A stretch of 64,000 nt of DNA from Cupriavidus nantongensis (GTDB lineage: Bacteria; Pseudomonadota; Gammaproteobacteria; Burkholderiales; Burkholderiaceae). The DNA lies in assembly GCF_001598055.1 (NCBI RefSeq), contig NZ_CP014844.1, positions 4,305,642 through 4,369,641 on the forward strand. The letters run 5' to 3'. The notes beneath the pieces were generated by a model that ran no database searches, was not told the DNA's origin, and saw only the letters and a program-made list of their open reading frames with translations. The position numbers and the translations under genes were made by a program. Positions 7,696 to 7,898 of the stretch are shown here, one piece after another. Position 1 is the first letter of the stretch. Each line of letters starts with the position of its first letter.

Positions 7696-7898
7696 ACTCG
7701 GTATTGGCAACTGTTCGGGTTACACGAATTGGATAGAACGGGCCGGTGCGTTGACCAAGTGCTCTCCCACGAGCTGCGAACTCTGAGGGGTTTCAGGTTT
7801 GGCGCACCAACCACGAAAAACAAGCAATCCTACATTGACGACTCTGCCGGTCGCTACTCTTCTTGAATGCCTTCAGAACAACGTTCCGAGAACATACA
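7696..7898 (-). ncRNA. Candidate bridge RNA region of the IS110 element (left end)
   Basis: This noncoding left end lies upstream of the transposase, where IS110-group elements encode their bridge RNA. Read on the minus strand it holds CCCCTC (7790-7785), then a 5-bp stem GAGTT/AGCTC with loop CGC (7783-7771), then GTGGGAGAG (7770-7762). The first segment equals the left target plus core. The second would pair with the right target plus core CTCTCCCGC through 9 pairs, one of them a G-U wobble. Further on, ACAGTTGC (7714-7707) equals the right end of the element plus the first core base. This is the order left guide, hairpin, right guide, donor guide known from IS621. I could not fix the right donor guide. 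Transcription is not shown. Confidence 0.6.

Follow-up and report, generated by a model that had tools for sequence, protein, structure and literature searches.

The window, a stretch of 64,000 nucleotides, harbors an IS110-group insertion sequence that lies between two CT cores on the minus strand (Table 1). Its limits were set by comparing the flanks of the four copies found in the host genome, all of which share the left junction ...CTCCC-CT/TGTATG and the right junction ...CACAGTTG/CT-CTCCCGC, with the remainder of a palindrome to the right of CT-CTCCCGC in every copy and with flanks that diverge farther out. The comparison fixes the element end at 7898 exactly, and the junctions and the uninterrupted sites in congeners described below show a CT core at both ends and no scar. 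A flanking CCCCTC at 7917-7912 was considered as the element end and was excluded by the copies and by the uninterrupted sites. The four copies are near-identical and thus represent few independent insertion events. The left end is long and the right end short (203 nt before the ATG at 7695 versus 15 nt after the stop codon), and the RNA described below lies in the left end, so the trait of the IS1111 group, a bridge RNA in a long right end, is absent. The minus-strand frame between the ends comprises 335 codons, 330 of them from the ATG at 7695, and the called TTG start at 7710 falls inside the left donor guide. Its product carries a DEDD RuvC-like domain (PF01548, E 3.4e-19) and a Transposase_20 domain (PF02371, E 4.5e-14), and among solved structures it matches ISCro4 (9t56, E 8e-26) and IS621 (8wt6, E 7.9e-28), to the latter of which it is only distantly related (phmmer 100.8 bits).

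Table 1. Features of the insertion sequence and of its target site in the window.
Feature	Position	Strand	Basis or remark
IS110-group insertion sequence	6688-7898	minus	1211 bp without core; 4 genomic copies with different flanks
Left core CT	7899-7900	minus	junction comparison
Right core CT	6686-6687	minus	junction comparison
Left target CTCCC	7901-7905	minus	uninterrupted site in congeners
Core, right target and rest of REP-like palindrome, CTCTCCCGCTTGCGGGAGAGGGG	6665-6687	minus	flank comparison, congener sites
DEDD recombinase, 330 aa from ATG 7695-7693	6703-7695	minus	Pfam PF01548, PF02371; IS621 match
-35-like TTGACT	6701-6706	minus	right end, overlaps stop codon; predicted junction promoter, 17-nt spacer
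-10-like TATGTT	7891-7896	minus	left end; predicted junction promoter
Bridge RNA, part covered by covariance model (both loops)	7672-7835	minus	held-out model R1
Target-loop closing stem, 5' strand	7799-7815	minus	minimum-energy fold; helix 1 covaries in relatives
Target-loop closing stem, 3' strand (partner of 7799-7815)	7739-7758	minus	fold and covariation
Left target guide CCC + core CT	7786-7790	minus	fixed-column reading
Hairpin between target guides, GAGTT-CGC-AGCTC	7771-7783	minus	5 bp
Right target guide GGGAG + AG (core)	7762-7768	minus	covariation; 7769-7770 also pair, without family covariation
Handshake base C	7761	minus	pairs with last base (G) of right end; 38/39 types
Donor-loop closing stem CCC (partner GGG 7677-7679)	7717-7719	minus	model alignment, covariation
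Left donor guide ACAGTTG + C	7707-7714	minus	equals right end + core base
Small hairpin in donor loop, ATAC-CGA-GTAT	7694-7704	minus	model alignment
Right donor guide AT-CC-G-CAAG	7683-7691	minus	pairs with left-end CTTGTAT, two bases looped out
Handshake base G	7682	minus	pairs with C left of core in target; 44/49 types
Donor-loop closing stem GGG	7677-7679	minus	model alignment, covariation

The site occupied by the element is REP-like. A 26-bp palindrome with a free two-base loop occurs at 78 exact places in the genome, compared with none for the reversed control, and the 12-base target CCCCTCTCCCGC occurs at 228 places on both strands, compared with 5 for the reversed control; all four copies of the element sit at this REP-like target. 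All 60 genomes of the genus sample, among them the host's own, gave a match to the joined flanks; in many the match was confined to REPs or to the left flank. Twenty loci were fetched out of the 60 genomes searched, one of them being the window's own flank, and the REP was continuous across the junction, with no insertion, in 19 of the 19 congener loci that were inspected. The host REP is asymmetric: in each of 13 distinct REPs obtained by fetching 15 of the 78 places (L157-L171), the CT is preceded by TCCC in one arm and by GCCC or ACCC in the other. The TCCC arm is used by all four copies, despite the left guide carrying A rather than T at -4; since each inspected REP offers one arm of either kind, this use could be chance (1 in 16). 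Unlike the window element, the elements of genomes G003 and G046 mostly sit in the other, non-T arm. Two partial relatives from another genome of the same phylum (L147, L154) also end at CT-CTCCCC, which resembles a similar repeat. Targeting of REPs by IS110 elements with a bridge RNA is already known: IS621 and other members of the family insert in REPs (PMC11208160; PMC1525189), and for IS621 the choice of target by the bridge RNA has been demonstrated (PMC11208160).

Relatives were collected by protein searches of samples taken at the level of genus, family, order, class, and phylum, together with contig loci and fetched regions, which yielded 134 loci matching the recombinase, some of them the same place fetched twice. 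Most came from the protein searches of the genome samples, and the contig scan contributed three. Both ends could be recognised in 94 loci of 42 types, reduced to 40 types when L060 and L061 were dropped as partial; because ends were defined by CTTGT[AG] at the start and GT[TC][AG]CT at the finish, none of the counts include elements whose ends or cores differ from these. A further 20 loci came from a later search of another family, and 11 of their types enter only the counts for the second handshake base and for the reading frame. The viral contigs searched contained no relatives, and a plasmid search with P0003 at E 1e-100 found none; in the 1207 plasmid records every best match fell below 60% identity, and these were left unused.

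The earlier note, made from the letters of the window, had proposed that a bridge RNA here should be recognised by a covariance model of IS110 left ends and should share a two-loop structure with homologous elements, and both expectations were borne out. The alignment of 29 relatives behind the model (R1) excluded the window element and 12 further types; it comprised L046, L055, and 27 of the 39 types other than the window's. The model describes two internal loops, and each of these has a closing stem and a small hairpin inside. Reading the minus strand, it finds the RNA of the window at 65.5 bits (7835-7672, E 9.3e-19). A search of the host genome, with a limit of E 0.1 and 150 of 4041 first-look candidates scored, returned the four copies (E between 1e-16 and 4e-16) and, beyond them, a single weak match to the target loop only, at 28284-28335 of the window (15.8 bits; E 0.00076 in the window and 0.084 genome-wide), which is probably due to chance. 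All 73 loci supplied to the model were detected at E 1e-6 or better; they cover 39 types, L033 not among them, 12 of which (the window's and 11 others) lie outside the model. In these 73 matches (43 distinct), 95.4% of the cells are paired and the covariation score is 0.608, as opposed to 0.192 after shuffling and at most 0.127 when stem partners are slid, a result that leans towards the modelled structure because the alignment was fitted to it. Folded alone, the window element closes the target loop with a long stem (7815-7799 paired to 7758-7739) and shows the inter-guide hairpin, the same 5-bp hairpin (7783-7771) that the earlier note had placed after the left guide. In its lowest-energy single-sequence fold the left-guide CCC is paired with the right-guide GGG and the consensus donor loop is missing, and three outer-stem pairs of the model are non-standard in the window element, which forms a longer stem of its own. 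An Rfam scan of 6400-8200 gave no match to a bridge RNA and one chance hit below the gathering score.

Three guide strings had been read in this region beforehand, and they stand where they were placed: CCCCTC at 7790-7785, GTGGGAGAG at 7770-7762, and ACAGTTGC at 7714-7707. Their order was said to be that of a known bridge RNA, and the layout is indeed beyond chance, as, when the left end was dinucleotide-shuffled 20,000 times, 232 shuffles contained the 7-nt right guide anywhere, 2 a right and a left guide in this layout, 1 a right guide and a left donor guide, and none all three. For comparison across elements, the guides were taken at columns fixed by the model and set independently of the targets, with three registers for the left guide that were also allowed in the null. 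Right target guides scored 5.43 of 7 on their own targets and 2.76 on permuted ones (39 types), and left target guides scored 3.95 of 5 and 2.54, respectively (38 types, as L118 lies at a contig end). For neither guide was any of 100,000 permutations as good, which was still the case without the REP-targeting types and with one type per right-target trinucleotide (15 types), and it is clear that guides and insertion sites covary, the behavior by which the earlier reading was to be judged. A free scan of the left end for the best left target guide often chose other places, in the window element included, and for this reason the guides were read at fixed columns; the permutation result was unchanged.

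The covariation also delimits the guides. On the right side the signal lies at +1 to +5 (0.91-1.00 versus 0.32-0.51), and pairing at +6 and +7 shows no excess with own targets (0.27 and 0.36 versus 0.35 and 0.38; 39 types), so that of nine right-target pairs originally counted those at +1 to +5 and the core hold, and the 5' GT carries no guide signal. On the left side the signal extends from -1 to -4 (0.73-0.96 versus 0.47-0.57), with little at -5 (0.54 versus 0.44). The equation of CCCCTC with left target plus core survives for three bases and the core, as the window guide pairs with CCC and CT and its A, A at -4 and -5 mismatch the site; its score of 3.0 of 5 barely exceeds the permuted mean and is unremarkable. 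For the right guide of the window, no other type's target scores higher. Poor fits were found for the right guides of L111 and L043, which rank 14th and 10th of 39, and for the left guides of L104, L128, and L138, at 2 of 5.

It might be argued that the recombinase protein itself recognises the REP palindrome, with the RNA matches incidental or only structural, as a REP is an inverted repeat and thus bindable by protein, and as the left pairing in the window is as short as three bases and the core. Such recognition would leave the covariation of guide and target across element types, at columns fixed by the model, unaccounted for, and elements of the window's own subfamily that are 65-67% identical in protein use other sites with matching guides (CCCC-CT-TGGGG in L199 and TA-CT-TCACT in L200), so we consider it extremely improbable. 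Guide covariation and the abundance of the palindrome support the suggestion of the earlier note that this is a natural recombinase programmed for a REP-like sequence. Its significance would lie in a natural, guide-readable recombinase being aimed at a repeat of which its host has so many exact copies.

The earlier note had made no mention of the right donor guide, the two handshake bases, the predicted junction promoter, or the probable overlap with coding sequence; it had correctly equated ACAGTTGC with the right end (ACAGTTG) followed by the core base C. The exact 7-mer formed by the last six right-end bases and this C is present in the left end of 21 of the 40 types and absent from 19, with a permuted mean of 6.9 and a maximum of 15. 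The layout of the right donor guide is that of IS621, in which A157-U158 and C162-G165 pair, U159 and U160 are flipped, and G161 stands opposite T (PMC11208158). Handshake bases have been described for IS621 (PMC11208158) and are found here at two positions. The base after the right target guide matches the last right-end base in 38/39 types, and the base after the right donor guide, a guide read at a fixed column of the model, matches the base left of the core in 44/49 types, the misses being L111, L128, L133, L134, and L138; for each, 0 of 100,000 permutations did as well.

The fourth genomic copy, L004 (G000:C1:1412674-1413675), carries a natural variant, G for C at the core position of the left donor guide (ACAGTTGG), that should weaken donor pairing. 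In L033, a 72%-identical relative from a groundwater metagenome-assembled genome, the target guides match its own site, TC-CT-CTTTC, and the left end is without a donor loop; the model gives just a partial target-loop match (12.8 bits), and the loss makes this relative look non-autonomous or dead. Decay of this kind in a copy and in a relative is what one would cite for the window copy being a dead remnant as well, its guides mere relics, a reading that we regard as improbable given its intact open reading frame and the presence of all guide parts, and given that the left ends of the window copy (L001), L002, and L003 are identical and score equally with the model, which points to recent movement.

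Taken together, the locus very likely holds an IS110-group element that moves by bridge-RNA-guided recombination. The element would excise as a circle, and its joined ends read TTGACT-N17-TATGTT, a promoter predicted from sequence; the motif TTGAC-N17-TA[TA]N[TC]T is present at the junction in 23/40 types, the window element among them, and a promoter at the circle junction has been reported for such elements (PMC11208160; PMC11187229). If active, this promoter would transcribe an RNA of ~200 nt comprising the bridge RNA and the recombinase leader. Judging from complementarity and from covariation in the family, the target loop would read CCC-CT-CTCCC in one REP arm and the donor loop would read the circle junction CAGTTG-CT-TGTAT, after which the recombinase, by analogy with IS621, would join target and donor at the CT. 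In the window subfamily, to judge from the frame, translation very probably starts in the donor loop, and codons 2 to 5 would then include the right donor guide together with its handshake base. The limits of the element, its target, the uninterrupted sites, the consensus fold, the complementarity, the covariation, and the reading frame are seen in the sequences themselves; we infer the binding of RNA by the protein, transcription, recombination, the start codon, and any competition between translation and guiding.

The scheme agrees with IS621 of E. coli (PMC11208160, PMC11208158) in the CT core, the bridge RNA in the left end, the REP target, the junction promoter, the order of left target guide, hairpin, right target guide, left donor guide, hairpin, and right donor guide, and in a right donor guide in which two bases are flipped out and a G faces T. 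It differs in that the right target guide of the window reads five target bases beside the core, whereas that of IS621 is four nt (G77-G80) including the core, in that the REP sequences are different by eye, and in that the 3' part of the window RNA very probably overlaps the recombinase frame. The seekRNA of ISEc21 and ISMch6 (PMC11187229) is similarly an upstream non-coding guide RNA in which the bottom-strand match comes first, 5' of that to the top strand; there the target guides were mapped, the seekRNA is 74 nt long, and the target is a linear one in a transposase gene, not a REP as in the window element. ISPpu9, ISPpu10, ISPa11, and ISRm19 are likewise IS110-family elements fixed in a genomic REP (PMC1525189, PMC8450116), ISPa11 being of the IS1111 type (PMC11187229); they have other hosts, and the likeness to the window element lies in REP insertion.

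The five types labelled by eye as REP-targeting (L001, L006, L007, L105, and L118) require four changes on a tree of 45 recombinases, at least three of which are forced by well-supported branches. A single clade for all five was rejected (p-AU 2.8e-28), and a single clade for L006, L007, and L118 alone gave p-AU 0.027, the groups having been named after the data were seen. The label showed no clustering beyond chance on this tree (70/500 shuffles as low). REP use was seen in several copies only for L001, L006, and L007, and one L006-type copy, L093, sits in a C-run instead of a REP; the label rests on one site each for L105 and L118, and on the right side only for the latter. The REP-targeting recombinases of this set are not one clade, a pattern consistent with repeated reprogramming towards abundant repeats. 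Related elements in which guides and targets have changed together bear on natural retargeting, and natural redirection between ISEc21 and its relative ISMch6 has been reported (PMC11187229).

The unexpected part of the analysis concerns the donor half of the RNA. All guides had originally been placed in a noncoding left end; very probably they are not all noncoding, as the donor half of the bridge RNA very probably overlaps the recombinase coding sequence in the window subfamily (the window element, L197, L198, L199, and L200). In these elements an in-frame TAA or TAG lies just 5' of the left donor guide, the only plausible ATG lies 5' of the right donor guide and its handshake base, and no ATG lies 3' of the guide. 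The window guide reads ATG-CAT-CCG-CAA-GGN, or M-H-P-Q-G, and the 3' part of the bridge RNA overlaps the recombinase frame if the ATG at 7695 is the start.

Translation could instead begin 3' of the donor loop at a rare start codon, which would make the right donor guide leader and not coding sequence. Outside the subfamily, 44/46 types do have an in-frame ATG, GTG, or TTG 5-48 nt 3' of the right donor guide, with most of these at +14 to +21, and of the two without a start in this count (L048 and L139), L048 nevertheless has an in-frame ATG at +17; L197, L198, and L199 each have a downstream GTG, and by eye there is no obvious ribosome site 5' of the ATG at 7695. Against this, in the window element and L200 the frame from the guide to the first DEDD Asp, identified by homology, contains no ATG, GTG, or TTG, and an in-frame stop lies 40 nt before the end of the right donor guide. 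Furthermore, M-x-x-Q occurs near the start in 105 of the 112 near relatives in which the Asp motif could be placed (among the best 120 of 8000 scored, with starts taken from gene predictions), and residue five is G in 102 of these, D in 2, and V in 1. A downstream rare start thus appears unlikely. We lean towards one DNA stretch being read twice, as right donor guide plus handshake base and as the first recombinase codons, which would amount to a built-in either/or switch between enzyme and guide.

Where a stretch serves as guide and as codons, retargeting would also alter a residue of the recombinase. In the targets of L200 and of its second copy, L212, the base left of the core is A, and both elements have T as the handshake base and the codon GTC (Val) in place of GGN; the exchange of Gly for Val is as handshake pairing would require, and as the two represent one independent case, the link between residue and target is a lead without a statistic. 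If the overlap holds, the RNA would be contested between initiating ribosomes and the folded donor loop, the N-terminus of the recombinase would encode part of the target choice, and the protein sequence alone would hint at the target base adjoining the core. Such an overlap of guide and coding sequence is not described in the IS110 and bridge-RNA literature covered by our search, which comprised listings of openly available papers and word searches within PMC11208160, PMC11187229, and PMC11208158. The leader of ISPpu9 likely folds over its own ribosome site (PMC1525189, PMC8450116).

A few further observations were made among the relatives. L062-L079 have CT-CAG at the right junction, and as the TCA it contains is the complement of a TGA stop codon, these elements may sit at gene ends. 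In another genome, a member of the window subfamily is present as three insertions (L199, L211, and L214) at CCCC-CT-TGGGG, apparently a different palindrome. In L043, L103, L122, and others, the right donor guide and closing stem (CAAGGATGGGA, CAAGGAGGGGA) resemble a ribosome site of the recombinase, and guide and translation signals may therefore overlap in these elements.
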